A DNA stretch of 64,000 nucleotides from Polyangium spumosum (GTDB lineage Bacteria > Myxococcota_A > Polyangia > Polyangiales > Polyangiaceae), in contig NZ_WJIE01000007.1 in the NCBI RefSeq assembly GCF_009649845.1, positions 248,001 to 312,000 of the forward strand, written 5' to 3'. Position numbers and translations under genes: made by a program. The notes beneath the pieces were generated by a model. That model had not been told where the DNA came from, ran no database searches, and saw only the letters and a list, made by a program, of their open reading frames with translations. Within the stretch, counting starts at the first letter, position 1. Each line of letters opens with the position of its first letter. Below are positions 4,503 to 57,404 of the stretch, one piece after another.

Positions 4503-5954
4503 TCAACCCCGATACGAAATAACGGTCTTCCGCTCGCTGTACTCTTCCATCGCGTAGCGGACGCCCTCACGGCCGAGACCGGACTCCTTCACGCCGCCAT
4601 AAGGCATGTGATCGGCGCGATAGGTGGGGACCTCGTTGATCATGACGCCGCCGACCTCGAGATCCTCGGCAGCGCGACGCGCGACGCGCAGGCTGTCGGT
4701 GAAGACGCCCGCCTGGAGGCCATACTTCGAGCGGTTCACCGCCTCGATGGCCTCCCCCACGTCGCGATACGTGAGCAGGTTGAGCACGGGGCCGAAGACC
4801 TCCTCGCGCACGATCGCGAGCGCCTCGCCCGGTTTGTCGAGGACCGTCGGCGGAAGGACGTTGCCCTCGCGCTTGCCGCCACAAAGCACGGCCACGCCCG
4901 ATTTCTGGGCCTCGTCGATCCACGTCGTGATGCGATCGGCCGCCTTGCCGTCGATCACCGGGCCCACGAGCACGCCCTCGGCGCGCGGATCCCCCGTCTT
5001 GATGCGCGAGACCTCGTCCAGCAGAAAGCCGCGGAACGCCTCCTCGACGCTCTCCTCGACCCAGACGTTTTGCACGGAAATGCAGACCTGCCCCGCGTAC
5101 GCGAAGGCGCCATACGCCACGCGCGAGGCCGCGCGGACGAGGTCGGCACCGCCGTGCACGATGACGGCCGCATTGCCGCCGAGCTCGAGCACGACGCGCT
5201 TGCCACGCGCCATGCTTTGGATCGTCCAGCCGACGGAGGCGCTGCCCGTGAAGCTGACGATCGCGACACGTGGATCACGGATCGCCCGCCCCGTGACCTC
5301 GTTCGGCGCGGTGATCGTCTGGAGCGCGCCGAGCGGGATGGTCTCGCGGCTCTCCGAGACCTCGTTCGCCGCCGCCTCGAAGACCTCGGCGAGCAGGCGC
5401 ACCGCGCCCGGCGCCTGCGGCGCAGGCTTGACGAGCACGGGCGCGCCAATCGCGAGCGCAGGCGCGACCTTGTGCGCGACGAGGTTCAACGGGAAGTTGA
5501 AGGGCGTGATCGCGAGGACGGGCCCACGCGGGACGAAGAGGCTCGTGCCAGGCTCGTACGCGCGGCCGGCCGCGTCGATGTCGATCGGGAAGACCTCGCC
5601 GCCATACCGCTTCGTCTCCTCGGCGGCGACGGTGAAGGTCGTGATCGCGCGGGAGACCTCGGCGTCCGCGAGCGCCGCGGGCTTGCCGGCCTCGTCGACG
5701 ATCGACGCCACGAACTTCGCCCGGTCCTCATCGATCCGCCGCGCCATCGCGGCGAGCAAGCAGCTACGGAGGTACCGGCTCGTCTTGCGGAAGCGCGTCT
5801 GCGCCGCCTTCGCCGCGGCGAGCGCGCGCTCCATGAGCGCGTCGTCGGCCTCCTCGGCGACGGCGACGATGCGGCCGCTGTAGGGCGATTTGATGGTATG
5901 CGTCCGGGTCGACTCCCGCCACGCGCCGTCAATGAAGAGCAGGTGTCGACTCAT
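4503..5954 (-). CDS. NAD(P)-dependent aldehyde dehydrogenase (succinate-semialdehyde dehydrogenase candidate)
   Basis: A 483-residue ALDH superfamily enzyme oxidising an aldehyde to an acid. The catalytic Glu motif ELGGNA and the catalytic Cys in YAGQVCISVQ are present, as are the cofactor segments TPFNFPLN and FTGSASVGW. The YAGQVC-type active site resembles the lactaldehyde/phosphonoacetaldehyde dehydrogenase branch rather than classical GabD. The start overlaps the aminotransferase stop by 4 bp (ATGA). Because the preceding gene would release succinate semialdehyde from GABA, oxidation of that product to succinate is the simplest role, but this is inference from the operon. The alternative is another omega-semialdehyde. 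Confidence 0.88.
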   Translation of the reverse strand: MSRHLLFIDGAWRESTRTHTIKSPYSGRIVAVAEEADDALMERALAAAKAAQTRFRKTSRYLRSCLLAAMARRIDEDRAKFVASIVDEAGKPAALADAEVSRAITTFTVAAEETKRYGGEVFPIDIDAAGRAYEPGTSLFVPRGPVLAITPFNFPLNLVAHKVAPALAIGAPVLVKPAPQAPGAVRLLAEVFEAAANEVSESRETIPLGALQTITAPNEVTGRAIRDPRVAIVSFTGSASVGWTIQSMARGKRVVLELGGNAAVIVHGGADLVRAASRVAYGAFAYAGQVCISVQNVWVEESVEEAFRGFLLDEVSRIKTGDPRAEGVLVGPVIDGKAADRITTWIDEAQKSGVAVLCGGKREGNVLPPTVLDKPGEALAIVREEVFGPVLNLLTYRDVGEAIEAVNRSKYGLQAGVFTDSLRVARRAAEDLEVGGVMINEVPTYRADHMPYGGVKESGLGREGVRYAMEEYSERKTVISYRG

Positions 5955-7355: not shown

Positions 7356-8822
7356 CTAGTACCAGCCGAGCGGGGCCTCGTCCAGGTTGATGTTGACCTG
7401 CTTGGTCTCGAGATACGCCTCGATCCCGTAGAGCCCGAGCTCGCGCCCGGTGCCGCTCTGCTTGTAGCCGCCCCAGGGCATCTCGTTGAACGTCGGGTGA
7501 TAGGTGTTCACCCAGGTGATGCCGGCGCGCAGCTCGCGGATCACGCGGTGCGCGCGCGTGAGGCTCTTCGTCCAGACCGCGGCGGCGAGGCCGTACTCGG
7601 TGTCGTTCGCGAGCGCGATGGCCTCCTCCTCGGTGTCGAACGGCGTCACCGTGAGCACGGGCCCGAAGATCTCCTCGCGCGCGATGCGCATGGTGGGCTT
7701 GACGTCGACGAAGATCGTGGGCTCGAGGAAGTGCCCGTTCGCGAAGGCCGGATCCGAGGGCCTCTTGCCGCCGCAGACGAGCCGCGCGCCCTCCTCGAGG
7801 CCGATGCGGATGTACGACTCGACCTTGTCGCGGTGCGCCGCCGAGACGAGCGGGCCCATCTTCGTCGCGGGATCGAGGCCATGGCCGACCTTCACGCGCG
7901 GGATCTTCTCGACCATCGCGGCGACGAGTTTGTCGTGCAGCGAGCGCTCGACGAGCAAGCGTGATCCGGCGGAGCAGACCTCGCCCTGGTTGGCGAAGGC
8001 GCCGAAGAGGGCGCCGTCGACGGCGGCCTCGAAATCGGCGTCGGCGAAGACGATGTTCGGGTTCTTGCCGCCGAGCTCGAGCGTGACCTTCTTGAGGTTG
8101 CCCGCGGAGGCCTGGAGGATCTTGCGCCCCGTGACGGTGCCGCCGGTGAAGGCGACCTTGTCGACGCGCGCGCTCTCGGCGAGCTCCTCGCCCGCGCCGG
8201 CGCCGGGGCCCGTGAGGATGTTGACGACGCCGGGCGGAAAGCCGACCTCGCTCATGATGCGGCCAAGCTCGAGGGCGGTGAGGGGCGTGAGCTCGGAGGG
8301 CTTGAGCACGCACGTGTTGCCCGCGGCGAGGGCGGGGGCGAGCTTCCAGGCGGCCATGAGGAGCGGGTAGTTCCAGGGGATGATCTGGCCGCAGACGCCG
8401 AGGGGCTCACGGACGACGAAGCTGACGCTGTTGGCGGGGACGTTCATGGTCTCGCCGGCGATCTTGGTGGCGAGCCCGCCGTAGAACTCGAAGCAGTTGG
8501 CGGCGTCGGCGACGTCGAACTGGGCCTCGGCGAGGGGCTTGCCGCAGCTCTGGACCTCGAGGCGCGCGAGGGCGTCGGCCTCCTTGTTGACGGCGTCGGC
8601 GAGCTTGAAGAGGAGCTTGGCCCGATCGAGGGCGGTGGTCTTGCGCCAGGGCCCACGATCGAAGGCCTCGCGAGCGGCGTCGATGGCGCGGCGCGCGTCG
8701 TCGCGGCCGGCCTCGGGGACGGTGGCGACGAGCTCACCATTGGCCGGGTCGCGAAGCTCACGCGTCTGCCCGGACAGGCTGTCCACCCAATTCCCACCGA
8801 TGAGCATCTGATAGCGTTTCAT
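7356..8822 (-). CDS. Aldehyde dehydrogenase, betaine-aldehyde/aminobutyraldehyde type
   Basis: ALDH of 488 residues, first gene of the operon. Catalytic motifs are ELGGKNPNIVFADAD with the general-base Glu and FANQGEVCSAGSRLLVE with the nucleophilic Cys; PWNYPLLMAAWK and FTGGTVTGR bind the cofactor. This matches the betaine aldehyde/4-aminobutyraldehyde branch (BetB, PatD, PuuC). With a polyamine importer and GABA transaminase downstream, oxidation of 4-aminobutyraldehyde to GABA is the likely step. The enzyme making that aldehyde from putrescine is not in this operon. GGAGG lies about 7 nt before ATG at 8822. The second ALDH in this operon belongs to a different branch, so the two are not a recent duplication. 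Confidence 0.88.
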   Translation of the reverse strand: MKRYQMLIGGNWVDSLSGQTRELRDPANGELVATVPEAGRDDARRAIDAAREAFDRGPWRKTTALDRAKLLFKLADAVNKEADALARLEVQSCGKPLAEAQFDVADAANCFEFYGGLATKIAGETMNVPANSVSFVVREPLGVCGQIIPWNYPLLMAAWKLAPALAAGNTCVLKPSELTPLTALELGRIMSEVGFPPGVVNILTGPGAGAGEELAESARVDKVAFTGGTVTGRKILQASAGNLKKVTLELGGKNPNIVFADADFEAAVDGALFGAFANQGEVCSAGSRLLVERSLHDKLVAAMVEKIPRVKVGHGLDPATKMGPLVSAAHRDKVESYIRIGLEEGARLVCGGKRPSDPAFANGHFLEPTIFVDVKPTMRIAREEIFGPVLTVTPFDTEEEAIALANDTEYGLAAAVWTKSLTRAHRVIRELRAGITWVNTYHPTFNEMPWGGYKQSGTGRELGLYGIEAYLETKQVNINLDEAPLGWY

Positions 8823-8880
8823 TTCGCGGCCTCCTCCTCCCCTCGGAAGGCGGGGAGTCTACCCGGGAAGCCGGCAGCGG

Positions 8881-8980
8881 CGGGAGAAAAAAGGGGGCAG
8901 GGGCGGAGGAGGGGGCGAGGGGGACGGGAGGGGGAGCGGGGGCGGGGGTGGCTGGAGGGCCAAACCGGGGGGGCGGGACA
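8881..8980 (+). repeat. G-rich tract with about ten G-runs, upstream of the polyamine/GABA operon
   Basis: The plus strand holds about ten runs of three to seven Gs in 100 bases, with short A, C or AGC spacers and very little T. This fits several overlapping G-quadruplex patterns. It lies between the operon start at 8822 and the next gene end at 9057, on the strand opposite to the operon transcript. A polypurine/polypyrimidine triplex or simple mutational drift are alternatives. Confidence 0.6.
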
Positions 8981-9026
8981 GAGCCTCCGCTCGGCAGGAG
9001 CACGATTGAGCGCCGGAATGGCGAGC

Positions 9027-9050
9027 TCGCCAGGTTCGATCACCTGGCGA
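9027..9050 (-). terminator. Perfect 9-bp hairpin just after the end of the 9057-9725 gene
   Basis: Arms TCGCCAGGT (9027-9035) and ACCTGGCGA (9042-9050) are perfect complements around a 6-nt loop TCGATC. The hairpin starts 6 nt past the stop of the minus-strand gene. No T-run follows in the direction of transcription, so it may stabilise a 3' end or act with Rho rather than be a full intrinsic terminator. Confidence 0.5.
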
Positions 9051-9056
9051 ATCGGC

Positions 9057-9725
9057 TCAGCCTTCCGCCGTCTCCTCCTCCACCGCCTCCGGCCGGCTCA
9101 CCTTCCGGAAGAACTGACCCGCCCAATCACGCGGCAATCCTCGCTCCCGCGCGCGGGCCGTCAATGCGTCGTGCAGCTCGTCACGCTCGCGCGTGAGGTC
9201 CGCCGCGAGCTCCTCCCGCCCGATCCGAACCTCGCCGCGCACGGTAGACACGGCCGCCGTCTGTGCGATCGCGGCGTCCGCGGCCTTCGCCCAGGGCTCG
9301 AGGTCGGCGCGGTGCTTGTCGAGCACCGGATCCTTCGAATCGAGCCAGCCGATCACCCGCGTGACCTGCTTTGGTAATGCCTGGCGGACGAACTTGCTCA
9401 CCGTACGCGTGCTCGAAAAGAACTGGGTCCACCGCGCCGACGAGCGATTCTTCTTCACGGCGAGGTAAAGATCGTCGCCGAACCGCTCGCACGCCGCGTC
9501 GAGCCGACCGTTGGCGACGATCCGCGCGGCGTCGGCGTCGGCCTGCGCCTCGCGCGCCGCGCGCTCCTTCATTCGCACGACGTCGACCTTGGCGAGCCAG
9601 CCGTCCGTGAGGGGAAGGAGATCGTACGCGTCAGGGTCGGCCTTGAGGCCGGAGCGGGTGAAAAAGACCTCGCCGTCGACCTCGTCGAGGGGCTGGGTGG
9701 GCTGAATCTTGCGGGGATGAGACAT
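9057..9725 (-). CDS. Hypothetical protein, 222 residues
   Basis: I do not recognise a family. The start is well supported: GGAGG sits 5 nt before ATG at 9725. The protein is soluble, charged, with no signal peptide or membrane segment. Residues 50-80 are Ala/Arg/Asp-rich and probably helical; a second helical, charged region lies near 165-200, so a coiled-coil or all-alpha protein is likely. The sequence ends in an acidic tail (EEETAEG). It is the gene immediately downstream, in transcription direction, of the 43-bp palindromic array, which ends about 125 bp before its start. Whether the array controls it is unknown. It is followed by a perfect hairpin. Confidence 0.7.
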   Translation of the reverse strand: MSHPRKIQPTQPLDEVDGEVFFTRSGLKADPDAYDLLPLTDGWLAKVDVVRMKERAAREAQADADAARIVANGRLDAACERFGDDLYLAVKKNRSSARWTQFFSSTRTVSKFVRQALPKQVTRVIGWLDSKDPVLDKHRADLEPWAKAADAAIAQTAAVSTVRGEVRIGREELAADLTRERDELHDALTARARERGLPRDWAGQFFRKVSRPEAVEEETAEG

Positions 9726-9848
9726 GGAAACCTCCAGAATGGGGAGACGTCGGAGACGCCGTGGGGCTCATCACGAACTGCCCCATTAGACGATCCGACC
9801 CAGGCGCCCATGCCCGGAGAGCACACTCCCGACGGAAACTTCCCGAGC

Positions 9849-10100
9849 AAGCGTCACGAGACCCGTTTGCACCGCGTGCAAGGGGGTTTCGAAGCGTCAC
9901 GAGACCCGTCTGCACCGCGTGCAAAGGGGTCTCGGACCGTCACGAGACCCGTCTGCACCGCGTGCAAAGGGGTTTCGAAGCATCACGAGACCCGTCTGCA
10001 CCGCGTGCAAAGGGGTCTCGAAGCATCACGAGACCCGTCTGCACCGCGTGCAAAGGGGTTTCGAAGCGTCACGAGACCCGTTTGCACGCGGTGCACGCGG
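9849..10100. repeat. 43-bp tandem array of composite palindromes, about 5.8 copies
   Basis: Units start at 9849, 9892, 9935, 9978, 10021 and 10064; the last is cut at about 37 bp. Each unit holds a 35-bp imperfect palindrome: outer arms CGAGACCC and GGGTCTCG (or GGGTTTCG) around an inner TGCAC-CGC-GTGCA. Where the right arm reads GGGTTTCG the change is C to T opposite G, so the RNA stem keeps a G-U pair; unit 1 likewise pairs T with G. In the last unit the central triplet is GCG instead of CGC. There are no spacers, so it is not CRISPR. The array fills the largest gene-free gap (9726-10118), starting 18 bp past the Uma2 stop; nothing else is visible in the gap. 43 is not a multiple of 3, so forward reading frames through it are not coding. 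Confidence 0.95.
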
Positions 10101-10118
10101 CAGTCTGCTCGATCGAAG

Positions 10119-11081
10119 TTACTCCGCGAGCACTTCGGCCATCGACCCGACCGTCGCGGCCCGGACGAGCCAGCGCTGGAGCGTCTCGGGTTCGGTGCAG
10201 GACCGGACGCGCTCGCGGTCACCCGCCGAGCAGGAGATCCCCCGGGCCGCGACGATGGCGAGCAGGCTGTCGTGCAGGCTCGTGAGGGCTTGCTCCGCCT
10301 CCGTCCGCGCTTGCTCCGCCTCCGTCCGCGCTTGCTCCGCCTCCGTCCGCGCTTGCTCCGCCTCCGTCCGCGCTTGCTCCGCCTTCGTTTCCAGGCTCTG
10401 CATCATGCCCTGGAGCCGCCCGATGAGGTCCTCGGTCCCGAAGATCGCGGCCATCCCATAAAAAAACTCGAGCCTGCCGTCCACGATCGCCAGGTCGAGA
10501 CCGAGCACGCCCGACGCATGACGGCCGCCCTGCGGCACGATGCGCTGATAACGACGCGCGTCCGGTGACGGGAGGCGATACCCGCGGAGGTCTTGCCTCT
10601 TGCGATCGTAGACGAAATACTCGGGGATCCCGAGGCGCGCATATCGCTCCACGTTGTCCACGAGATCCTTCTTCCGGTTGCCCTCGTAGACGACCTCGAT
10701 CGCGAGGTCGATCCCCCGCCCTTCATCGACGACCACCCACGCCATGCGCTCGTCGTCCTCGGGCTCAGGCACGTCTAGGACGGCAAGGATGTCCGGGCAA
10801 AAGGCTCGCTCGCCGGGGTAGAGGACGTTCATCTCCTCCGCCAGGTAGATGACGCGATGAAGGGCGTCGAAGTGCCTGCGCAGGCGGTCGGTCGCCCGGC
10901 GCTTGGCGTTGAAGTGCGGCCGGCCGTCGCCCATCGTGAGCCGAGGATCGGAGAGCGCGTCGATCACCTCGACGAGGAACTTGTGCCGCGCCTCGGGCGT
11001 CATCCCGCGCCACGCCTCCTCCGACGGCGTCACGGGCGGTTCGGGCAGGACGTCTTCGGGCTTCTCGGCCGGAGGTGCCAT
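10119..11081 (-). CDS. Uma2-family putative restriction endonuclease-like protein with heptad-repeat tail
   Basis: A 320-residue protein with a Uma2 (DUF820) PD-(D/E)XK-like core: the N-terminal EEAWRGMTPEARHKFLVEVI segment, PDILAVLDVPEPEDDERMAW, DEGRGIDLAIEVVYEGNRKKD with the presumed catalytic Asp/Glu...Lys, and YARLGIPEYFVYDRKRQDLRGY. These proteins occur in many copies in myxobacteria and cyanobacteria; their biological role is not established. From about residue 230 the protein becomes a coiled coil made of five near-identical heptads (EAEQART) encoded by a 21-bp tandem repeat, followed by a helical tail. ATG at 11081 is preferred to an upstream in-frame start because the homologous part begins there; no clear Shine-Dalgarno is seen. 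Nuclease activity is unproven. Confidence 0.85.
   Translation of the reverse strand: MAPPAEKPEDVLPEPPVTPSEEAWRGMTPEARHKFLVEVIDALSDPRLTMGDGRPHFNAKRRATDRLRRHFDALHRVIYLAEEMNVLYPGERAFCPDILAVLDVPEPEDDERMAWVVVDEGRGIDLAIEVVYEGNRKKDLVDNVERYARLGIPEYFVYDRKRQDLRGYRLPSPDARRYQRIVPQGGRHASGVLGLDLAIVDGRLEFFYGMAAIFGTEDLIGRLQGMMQSLETKAEQARTEAEQARTEAEQARTEAEQARTEAEQALTSLHDSLLAIVAARGISCSAGDRERVRSCTEPETLQRWLVRAATVGSMAEVLAE
10288..10390 (-). repeat. 21-bp in-frame tandem repeat inside the Uma2 gene
   Basis: Four perfect 21-bp copies begin at 10288, 10309, 10330 and 10351, with a partial fifth from 10372. Each encodes one heptad of the form EAEQART, so copy changes would alter coiled-coil length by whole heptads without a frameshift. 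Confidence 0.9.
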
Positions 11082-11121
11082 GCGCGAGGGTATACCACGT
11101 CCCTCCCCTCGCCGTCGCGAA

Positions 11122-12516
11122 TCACTGCCGCGTCGCGTCCCACCGCCCGCCGTCGGCTTCACTCTGGAGATTGCCCCAGGTCCCGGCGAGGTTCGGGTCC
11201 GACGTGGAGGCGCGCCGGAGCGAGGCGCGGCCGGCGCCGGGGCGCGGGACGAACGTCATCCAGGTGCAGGAGAGCGCGACGCTCCCCGCGTCCTTCACGC
11301 AATCGAGGCGGCCCTGCGCGCCCCCGTCCTGGAAGCTGCAAGCCACCATCGAGGTGTTCTCCGCGCATTGCATCGGCCCGCGCGTGCTCGAATAGGTGCC
11401 CGTGAACGATACCGGCGCGGCCGGGACCGGCGGCGGCGCAGGCGCAGGCGCGGGCGTGGTCGTGGTGGGCAGCGGGAACGAGGTGGGGAAGGGCAGGCTC
11501 GGCAGAGGAAACCCCGCCATCGGGAACGGGAACGAGGTGCCGGGGAAAGGCAGGGTCGGCTGCGGCACGGGCAACGCCGGCCCCCCGCCGTCGCCGTAGA
11601 GCGCCCCGATCGCAGCCCGATCGAGCTGGGAGAGGCCCTCGCGCTGGCCGATCTTCGCATTCGGGTCGCGAGGGACGATCGTCGGCCGGCCGGTCCGGCT
11701 GAAGGCGCGGGCCGAGTAATGCATGATGCTCTGGTAATCGTAGGACCCGATGTCCTGCCCCGCCCCGCCCTTCTTCTCGAAGTTCCACCGATACGAAGGG
11801 TCGATGTCGTCCCACATGACGGTGATGAACTGGTCGCGGTCATTGCGCGATTGCTCGTGATAGAAGCCAGCCGCGTGCAGGACCTCGTGGACGACGCTGC
11901 CGCGCCCGCAGTCGGCGACCTCGATCTCCTGGGGGCCCCCGATGCGGCCGACGTACGAGCTGCACCCGCTGCCCGCGCCGCTGCTGCGGAAAACCACGTA
12001 ATCAGCGTCGCCCGCGTGGGGGCGGAGGCGGAGCTGGGTGGTGTTCAAGTGCGCGACGGCCCAGTGGATCGATTCGACCGTGGAGGGGTGCACGGAGCCG
12101 TCGATCACATAAGGGATCTCACCCCGCGGCCAGAGGTCGGCGCGGCTCGCGACGCCCATCGCGCCCTTGACGTCCCCGGCGGGGCGCTGCGGCATCCCAT
12201 GACGGAAGGGCACGAGCGTCGCCGGGCCGAGCATCATGTCGCCCTCCATGACGGCCAGGCCGTCGACGACGTCAAAACCCACGAGCTGCCTGGACACGTT
12301 GTTGGCGAGGTAGATAAAAGCGCTGCCAATATGCCGCGGCGCGGCAGGACGGTATACCTCGGCCTGCTGGGGAGACGCCTGGGAGGCGCCCGTCCATGTG
12401 CCGGAAGGCTGGCCTGCCGTTCGAGCCGGCGCGTACGAAGGAGAGCTCTTGCCGCACCCCGCGAGGGAGACGAGCACCACGAGCGCACCACAAACGGAAC
12501 GGAGACCCTCGCCCAT
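11122..12516 (-). CDS. Astacin-type zinc metalloprotease (M12A), lipoprotein
   Basis: Secreted protease of 464 residues. The zinc site HEVLHAAGFYHEQ matches the astacin signature HExxHxxGFxHE, and the Met-turn lies in SIMHYSARAFS. PYVIDGSV starts the catalytic domain, preceded by a short propeptide region. The start at 12516 places a signal peptide ending in SLAGC, a clean lipobox, so the enzyme is probably anchored in the envelope. After the catalytic domain comes a Pro/Phe-rich linker of about 60 residues with repeated LPFP/FPLP motifs, then a C-terminal domain with paired Cys. Prey or matrix protein degradation is a plausible role in a predatory bacterium, but this is inference. It is divergent from the DUF4377 lipoprotein gene. 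Confidence 0.92.
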   Translation of the reverse strand: MGEGLRSVCGALVVLVSLAGCGKSSPSYAPARTAGQPSGTWTGASQASPQQAEVYRPAAPRHIGSAFIYLANNVSRQLVGFDVVDGLAVMEGDMMLGPATLVPFRHGMPQRPAGDVKGAMGVASRADLWPRGEIPYVIDGSVHPSTVESIHWAVAHLNTTQLRLRPHAGDADYVVFRSSGAGSGCSSYVGRIGGPQEIEVADCGRGSVVHEVLHAAGFYHEQSRNDRDQFITVMWDDIDPSYRWNFEKKGGAGQDIGSYDYQSIMHYSARAFSRTGRPTIVPRDPNAKIGQREGLSQLDRAAIGALYGDGGGPALPVPQPTLPFPGTSFPFPMAGFPLPSLPFPTSFPLPTTTTPAPAPAPPPVPAAPVSFTGTYSSTRGPMQCAENTSMVACSFQDGGAQGRLDCVKDAGSVALSCTWMTFVPRPGAGRASLRRASTSDPNLAGTWGNLQSEADGGRWDATRQ

Positions 12517-12576
12517 GCTCGAACTATTCCAGGCGTGGCCCGAAGATTCCAGGAAATCCGCGCGGGAGATCGAAGA

Positions 12577-13029
12577 ATGAGGTACGCTCCACGCGCCATG
12601 GCCTCCGCATTGCGTCAAGCGCTCCTGAGCGCCGCCCTCTTCACCGCCGCCTGCGAGCCGAGCGCGACGCAGAGCAGCGCCACCGTCCCCGTCGGCGCGA
12701 CCACGGAGGAGGCGAACCCCGACGCGCCACCCGTCCCGACGAGCGAGGCGAAAGAATCACCCGCGAAACCCGGGCAGAAGACGCTGTTCGTGCGCGAGCA
12801 GCGGGTCGACTGCGAGGGCGAAGGCCCGATGCGGTGCATGCAAGTCCGCGCGTCGGCGGACGCGGAATGGGAGCTCTTTTATGGGAAGATCGAGGGGTTT
12901 TCCTACGAGGAGGGCTACACCTACGAGCTCAGGGTGGCGCCTCTGGCGGCGACGGGGCCGAGGGCGGATGGGCCGTCGGGCAGGCTCGAGCTCGTCGAGA
13001 TCGTGTCGAAGGAGAAGGTCGAGCCGTAA
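12577..13029 (+). CDS. Small lipoprotein with DUF4377 domain
   Basis: A 150-residue exported protein. The signal segment ends at TAAC, a lipobox-like site, followed by a Ser/Thr/Pro/Glu-rich linker. The C-terminal half has the DUF4377 pattern: VREQRVDCEGEGPMRCMQV, then WELFYGKIEGFSYEEGYTYE. Members are often paired with META/HslJ-like domains and have no known activity. ATG at 12577 is preferred because GGAG lies about 9 nt upstream; ATG at 12598 is an alternative. The 60-bp gap to the divergent astacin gene must hold both promoters. The stop is 9 bp from that of the convergent gene. Confidence 0.82.
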   Translation: MRYAPRAMASALRQALLSAALFTAACEPSATQSSATVPVGATTEEANPDAPPVPTSEAKESPAKPGQKTLFVREQRVDCEGEGPMRCMQVRASADAEWELFYGKIEGFSYEEGYTYELRVAPLAATGPRADGPSGRLELVEIVSKEKVEP

Positions 13030-57304: not shown

Positions 57305-57404
57305 TCGACGCTTGGGGCTACGGATCGCCTACGGCGTCCTACGCCCCAAACCCCTCGACGCTTGGGGCTACGGATCGCCTACGGCGTCCTACGCCCCAAA
57401 CCCC
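57305..57404. repeat. Perfect 50-bp tandem duplication of a hairpin element
   Basis: 57305-57354 and 57355-57404 are identical. Each holds outer arms TTGGGGC and GCCCCAA, a TAC/TAC internal loop, an inner GGATCGCC/GGCGTCC stem with one bulged T, and a TAC apical loop. The pair sits between sseA and asnS, 10 bp beyond the asnS start region. Perfect identity indicates a recent duplication or strong homogenisation. Confidence 0.95.

Follow-up and report, generated by a model that had tools for sequence, protein, structure and literature searches.

Tandem 43-bp palindrome arrays at conserved chromosomal positions in Polyangium and their possible role as DNA platforms

The window array and its neighbouring genes

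The window analysed here is a 64,000-nucleotide stretch of the soil myxobacterium Polyangium spumosum, whose assembly (G000) comprises 10.76 Mb in 61 contigs. Two minus-strand genes, one for a 222-aa product with no assigned family (9057..9725) and one for a Uma2-type nuclease with a C-terminal coiled coil (10119..11162; Pfam PF05685, E 1.4e-18), flank a tandem array at 9849..10095, which is assigned to neither strand. TRF reports a period of 43 bp, 5.7 copies and a 92% match over 9849-10095, and TRF, a unit listing and shuffles together define six TGCA-N5-TGCA cores at 43-bp spacing, starting at 9868, 9911, 9954, 9997, 10040 and 10083. The stop codon of the Uma2 gene lies 23 bp beyond the last core. 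The coiled-coil tail of that gene holds a coding 21-bp repeat of 4.8 copies (10288-10388), which ranges from 2.0 to 4.9 copies among the four orthologues where TRF detected it, and a perfect 50-bp x 2 tandem duplication is found elsewhere in the window (57305-57404).

The first unit (9857..9891, strandless) is a full 35-bp palindrome with outer arms CGAGACCC and GGGTTTCG around the core TGCACCGCGTGCA, and the general layout is CGAGACCC-GTC-TGCAC-CGC-GTGCA-AAG-GGGTCTCG. Five units are full, and each forms 13 or 14 Watson-Crick pairs out of 19 (mean 13.4) in a 39-bp span about the core centre. No shuffle of one unit, out of 20,000, exceeded 13 pairs over the same span (mean 5.4), a value that every full unit reaches or passes. 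The sixth unit (10083..10110, also strandless) reaches 10 of 19 pairs; its core is flipped to TGCACGCGGTGCA and its right outer arm is degenerate, with CGCGGCAGTC where GGGTCTCG is expected. The array of 43-bp palindromes described in the original prediction is therefore real, and our reading of the units agrees with it on the 35-bp palindrome with an inner TGCAC-CGC-GTGCA, on the swap of CGC for GCG in the last unit, and on the exclusion of CRISPR, since the units are contiguous and have no spacers. Its description of the arms is accurate for the five full units and overlooks the lost right outer arm of the sixth. The variants were placed in the outer arm, where a change of C to T opposite G is seen in three of the five full units, but the inner arms vary too, reading TCTGCA/TGCAAA in four of the five.

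The array was also described as filling the gap between a Uma2 gene and an unknown gene. The 222-aa gene adjoins it in all six genus genomes, but the Uma2 gene abuts it directly in only four (W, L249, L254 and L267). An astacin gene stands between the two in G004 (L263), and the called neighbours in G003 (L260) do not include a Uma2 gene. A Uma2 neighbour is thus dispensable to the array context.

The 222-aa product, which shows 73-83% identity between the window copy and those of the other five genus genomes, had been suggested as the binder of the array, a role for which we found no support. It gave nothing above the curated Pfam cut-off, no PDB sequence match and no convincing match in PHROGs (best E 0.22). 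Its gene, with 2-6 matches per genus genome, adjoins one of several arrays in each. Among five other array-bearing genomes searched, relatives occur in three (G012, G215 and G233), where they lie neither on array contigs nor near array positions, and they were not found in G008 and G130. None were found in G324 or in four genomes picked as array-free, namely G101, G103, G088 and G062, the first two of which were so counted despite one isolated two-core match each. These are too few genomes for the pattern of presence to be used. The gene would best be taken as a context marker for the window array, with binding as a candidate role only.

Arrays across Polyangium and beyond

The window array is not a case of local slippage. 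A DNA search of the genome and its relatives, as originally proposed, found arrays in six of six genus genomes, so the unit is neither absent from close relatives nor peculiar to this locus; the matches listed also include Polyangium fumosum and Polyangium sp. 15x6, 6x1 and y55x31. P. spumosum itself has two further clear arrays (C7:61.2 kb and C1:297.8 kb) and a diverged one (C1:613.4 kb). A pattern of two cores at 42-44 bp spacing gave 15-30 matches in each genus genome, where its reversed control gave none (that control had nine forward matches in all, spread over 8 of 108 genomes with no more than two in each). Overall the pattern matched in 12 of the 108 family genomes, and outside the genus only G008 (eight) and G012 (three) had more than one match. 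In G002, which is nearly one contig, it marks seven arrays, at 2.76, 2.90, 2.96, 4.56, 5.89, 7.05 and 10.36 Mb, three of them within 200 kb of one another.

Positions are conserved as well. By crude gene calls and protein clustering, the window locus is occupied in all six genomes, always beside the 222-aa gene. A second locus, by UvrD-type helicase/nuclease and EAL-CBS genes, also holds an array in all six, with the EAL gene called in five. A third adjoins a gene that we take, from its sequence, to encode tryptophanyl-tRNA synthetase; it is occupied in four genomes by gene clustering and in G002 (L416) by flank similarity. In P. spumosum the array at this third locus has, at a distance of 1.1-2.4 kb (L010 3372-5701, contig C1), an adjacent pair of genes for a ParA-like ATPase and a Schlafen/AlbA-RecG-type protein, and this pair has no equivalent among the neighbour clusters of the locus in other species. 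The arrays are a real and conserved family, apparently one that is undescribed. We found no account of them in the literature covered, which lay mainly outside subscription journals and included larger result sets in part, and the text of PMC12306157 (RepRanger) contains none of the strings Polyangi, Myxococc, Sorangium, Prevotella or tandem. The plasmid and phage collections gave no match to the arrays; viral contigs with pattern matches are present among the matches listed.

Between neighbouring perfect cores at the genus loci, 113 spacings of up to 120 bp were measured: 82 of 43 bp, 26 of 42 bp and five of 86 bp, with no other value. With one mismatch tolerated across the eight TGCA letters, core number is six in 13 arrays, seven in 11 and four in one. 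These 25 are the Polyangium arrays fetched, a set complete for G002 only (G004 and G005 hold further arrays); outside it stand the L011 array, which has a diverged core, and a two-core remnant in G001. The latter is a family copy (L253 7750-7920, contig C160) at a locus where G002 (L257) has seven cores, so not every array is kept.

The symmetrised profile has 1.8-2.0 bits over TGCA, followed on each side by R, R, C and G (0.62, 0.83, 1.50 and 1.25 bits), which gives the extended consensus CGYYTGCA-N5-TGCARRCG. The invariance of TGCA is partly circular, since the arrays were found by TGCA, but the outer letters played no part in finding them, and the two positions that flank TGCA hold a pyrimidine-purine pair in 49 of 50 consensus cases. 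With the TGCA letters left out, the Watson-Crick fraction at array-consensus level is 0.56, against 0.21-0.33 at slid centres. In a dyad scan that took in four cores of G012, this fraction is 0.69 at the core centre and 0.44 at +21.5, with most other centres at 0.2-0.3; centres at 4.5 bp score 0.46-0.48 because TGCA is itself palindromic, so the +21.5 dyad is not unique. By the script's labels, N5 occurs in both orientations in 13 of the 25 arrays, as a dyad site would allow, and in one orientation only in the other 12.

Whole arrays of ~315-380 bp are common to loci II and V, and to loci I and VIII. Flank matches span 0-80 bp in most of these pairs and 643 bp in one II-V2 pair; loci V and V2 resemble a segmental duplication. 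With arrays shared entire while the flanks mostly differ, copying en bloc is probably possible. This sharing, and an intergenic position mainly near stop codons (by crude gene calls a stop codon lies no more than 64 bp from the start of 20 of 25 arrays, each taken as its cores with 15 bp added), would suit a palindromic element of REP/BIME-like or MITE-like kind, present in low copy number, spreading as a complete array and persisting passively. We nevertheless regard such an element as unlikely. REP, BIME and REPIN sequences are likewise short intergenic palindromes, at times in arrays, but they carry a GTAG or CGTC tag at the stem foot and have a linked RAYT transposase (PMC3733652), and REP elements usually exceed 100 copies per genome (PMC2817692), against seven array loci in G002. 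CGTC precedes the palindrome in four of six window units, but GTAG/CGTC stands at no fixed offset overall (at best GACG in 35, CGTC in 21 and GTAG in three of 159 units). A Y1-transposase search of G000 alone gave two Y1_Tnp matches (C42 and C35), one on a 152-aa frame and the other with an internal stop, and none on the array contigs C1 and C7, so that no linked RAYT was found there. All 14 zero-mismatch matches to the window unit are confined to three arrays (at up to two mismatches the pattern has 150 matches, not above the 201 of its reversed control), and positions are kept in six of six species. On tag, copy number and linkage, a REP/BIME identity is a poor fit.

It is harder still to see the arrays as neutral tandem repeats that owe their symmetry to hairpin-driven replication errors. 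Within-array homogenisation does differ (TRF copies run from 2.5 to 5.7 at locus I) and one locus has two cores only, both of which would fit such repeats. However, two loci are kept in all six species despite the divergence of the neighbouring 222-aa product, spacing is confined to 42/43, and core number is nearly fixed whereas the 21-bp Uma2 repeat varies, although this last comparison is a loose one between differently counted repeats. We consider neutrality very improbable. Gene orientation shows no bias: 2 of the 25 Polyangium arrays and 2 of 11 in Prevotellaceae occupy divergent gaps, and among 50 control gaps 9 are divergent. The idea that arrays avoid divergent promoters was dropped.

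Searches beyond the genus fixed the core and mostly the spacing. A scan of the collection for three cores at 42-44 bp, run without a control and with runs mostly at 42 bp dropped as probably coding, gave at least 19 arrays at 43 bp in six rumen Prevotellaceae MAGs and at least four in one Fibrobacter MAG. A period of 43 bp is not divisible by three, and arrays with this period were therefore counted as non-coding. A Deltaproteobacterium MAG with a 43-bp array, among the matches listed, is the same contig as G130 C19. Gene context is missing at contig edges for 8 of the 19 Prevotellaceae and two of the four Fibrobacter loci, and L156 is too short. Palindromes of CCC-N-GGG type without a TGCA core appear to extend the arrays outward in the flanks of four Prevotellaceae loci (L126, L137, L138 and L116), and the Prevotellaceae arrays may be longer mosaics.

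Among 282 phylum genomes, the exact 43-bp three-core pattern had 35 matches in four genomes, against two in two genomes for the reversed control. When the period was left free between 28 and 58 bp, 48 forward matches in 12 genomes faced 56 in seven genomes for the reversed control, so the match count on its own is no evidence. The periods recovered were 43 bp in G000, G008, G130 and G215 and 42 bp in G233; spacings in G324 were 36, 36, 39 and 42, and the matches in the remaining six genomes (G007, G041, G197, G226, G321 and G329) were excluded on visual inspection, as repeats of cysteine codons or simple repeats. A half-period dyad is present in the eight groups examined, at 21.5 in 43-bp units and at 21.0 in the 42-bp units of G233, standing 1.5-4.4 SD above other centres. 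Since a fully palindromic unit must show both dyads, this second dyad and the first count as one observation. In Fibrobacter the arms adjoining the core are not symmetric (0.18). Either common descent or convergence could account for the arrays across these lineages.

Two other repeats came to light in G002. A chromosome sample drawn for GC skew (L433, G002:C1:12,000,001-12,020,000) contains dyads of the form GACCTC-N6-GAGGTC at 21/22-bp spacing, half of 43, over 5568-5702 by TRF and more weakly to ~6000, which suggests other dyad-array families with two-turn phasing. At L423 (G002:C1:3,800,001-3,820,000), ~5 kb (7412-12585) show a 42-bp periodicity with identity up to 1.0, possibly a coding repeat.

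Mismatch types on the two strands

The original prediction saw selection on structure in the outer-arm change of C to T opposite G, which would keep pairing in RNA. If selection acted on RNA, G-T mismatches should outlast A-C mismatches on the transcribed strand, and retention of G-T without A-C offers a general test for an RNA stem as opposed to a DNA dyad. In the window array, the outer-arm variant pairs on the plus strand only, whereas the inner-arm variant makes a C-A mismatch on the plus strand and pairs on the minus strand only. Because the outer arm wobbles on one strand and the inner arm on the other, no single strand is wobble-preserved throughout, and the six units together have nine G-T and nine A-C mismatches.

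The same holds for the wider family. With locus groups oriented by their neighbouring genes, 207 G-T pairs were observed against ~275 in slid controls, 181 A-C pairs against ~265, and 996 Watson-Crick pairs against ~531. At array-consensus level the G-T and A-C fractions are 0.068 and 0.080, both under every slid value. Individual groups are uneven, with G-T:A-C counts of 55:13 at locus IV and 41:66 at locus I, but this largely reflects base composition, since the slid counts are 62:25 and 66:79. To allow for transcription of either strand, we also chose the better strand for each array (n=25). The chosen strand keeps on average 1.00 of the slid value, whereas slid centres treated alike keep 1.27 (1.01-1.64), and 5 of 25 arrays exceed 1.2.

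These counts bear on the possibility that the array works as RNA. Its tandem hairpins would then form a 3' UTR or a small RNA, which would stabilise or terminate the transcript upstream or tie up a protein that binds RNA. The nearness of most arrays to a stop codon would suit such a role, as would the outer-arm G-U variant and the few single arrays that keep G-T or A-C above the slid value on their better strand. Compared with shuffles, both strands also form much more stable folds (z -11.9 and -8.9), although strong folding is expected from any palindrome. The array has no T-run terminator, the sole match in 9000-10900 lying outside it at 10620-10634, and Rfam at gathering score gave no match in the 43,255 bases of four own-genome array loci. 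Above all, G-T mismatches are kept no better than A-C, even when the strand is left free, and the two variable arm positions of the window array require opposite strands for wobble. We therefore rejected the RNA-level reading as the favoured explanation on mismatch type per strand, per locus, at consensus level and with the strand free, and hold it unlikely.

What survives of the original argument is, in kind, the protein-binding site; the G-U-preserving change does not serve as evidence for RNA. The proposed count of stem covariation likewise returned strong Watson-Crick symmetry with no better retention of G-T than of A-C. We favour reading the palindromes as DNA dyads, although template-switch repair of quasi-palindromes could give a like pattern.

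A candidate DNA platform and its relation to known systems

The constant four-turn spacing leads us to favour a DNA platform for a dimeric protein, a reading to which we give an even chance. From the observed family, its conserved positions, spacing, core count and dyads and the lack of a G-U preference, we infer a protein, its cooperativity and an outcome. The window array would be one of several chromosomal platforms per Polyangium genome, each core of the consensus given above being occupied by a putative dimeric DNA-binding protein. Recurrence every 42 or 43 bp, or about four helical turns, would place the bound dimers on one face of the helix, where cooperative binding could assemble six or seven of them into a single complex, with the weaker half-phase dyads perhaps serving as second contacts. 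The likely outcome would be a chromosome anchor, an insulator or a local silencing platform. The recurrence of 42/43-bp units with half-phase dyads in other lineages supports this proposal.

Several points count against a platform. Template-switch correction of quasi-palindromes can also yield symmetric changes without wobble bias and needs no function, constant spacing within one array follows from tandem duplication, and the Polyangium arrays may share an ancestor. We also weigh against it the partly circular invariance of TGCA, the 12 arrays with N5 in one orientation only, the +21.5 dyad that is not unique, the two-core locus, the unbiased gene orientation and the free-period scan, in which forward matches did not exceed the reversed control. 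If the arrays are protein platforms, they would point to a so far undescribed system that organises or insulates DNA in large bacterial genomes, and a six-core DNA of ~260 bp would be a defined ligand ready for pull-down.

Variation in the cores between species is pertinent to such a protein. In G000, 16 of 17 cores at three loci read TGCAC-N3-GTGCA. This form is found in none of 22 cores in G001, 39 in G002 (where the form is TGCAACGCGTGCA), 17 in G004 and 18 in G005, nor in the six of a strain 6x1 array, which is perhaps G004 itself; G003 has it in 9 of 24. A change in one trans-acting binding protein would explain the concerted change in G000, and interlocus gene conversion would explain it likewise. 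If the arrays are protein platforms, this concerted core change in one species would offer a natural specificity switch for testing candidate proteins.

A broader and more speculative reading extends the platform to a widespread, apparently undescribed class of elements in Myxococcota, Prevotellaceae and Fibrobacter. Tandem dyads at 42/43 bp with a half-period dyad, at several loci per genome, would each be read by a co-evolving, lineage-specific dimeric protein and would form chromosome-organising platforms analogous to a plasmid centromere. We think this rather doubtful.

Among known systems, CRISPR and type III toxin-antitoxin RNA arrays have tandem repeats whose unit length and copy number are similar, but the Polyangium arrays have no spacers and no common linked gene across loci. 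CdbA of Myxococcus xanthus also recognises sequence-specific, GC-rich chromosomal sites, bends DNA and affects organisation more than transcription; its sites, however, are direct repeats spaced by 4 bp at more than 500 positions (PMC7156744), unlike the dyads in few phased arrays described here.

A chromosomal centromere of parS/sopC type, loaded by a ParB-family protein, would account for tandem dyads at this period, yet the surroundings of the arrays make it very unlikely. Pfam identified no ParB among 14 neighbour proteins from representative Polyangium genomes at loci I, II, IV, V, V2, VI and VII, and one ParA-like ATPase, 2.4 kb from the array at G000 locus IV. Chromosomal parS sites cluster near the replication origin, but the seven G002 arrays lie at least 1.3 Mb from dnaA (11.65 Mb) and at least ~2.4 Mb from the GC-skew sign change between 12.8 and 0.3 Mb, an approximate origin drawn from 24 noisy samples of this one genome. 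Neither origin nor terminus shows convincing enrichment of arrays in G002. With no ParB among the 14 neighbours and no origin clustering in G002, we do not file the arrays as centromeres.

The closest architecture is nevertheless that of sopC (parS-F) of plasmid F, which is bound by SopB/ParB-F and published as twelve 43-bp repeats with ten 16-bp ParB-binding inverted repeats (PMC6238139). In the F-plasmid sequence we found 11 motif matches with up to three mismatches, and ten spacings of exactly 43. The half-phase dyad of sopC scores 0.49, and other offsets score higher (0.56 and 0.54). The Polyangium arrays differ in having a 13-bp odd core instead of a 16-bp even dyad, and in occupying several chromosomal loci with no parAB found, whereas sopC is one plasmid locus beside sopAB. 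The likeness, tandem 43-bp units with one strong dyad each, is architectural.
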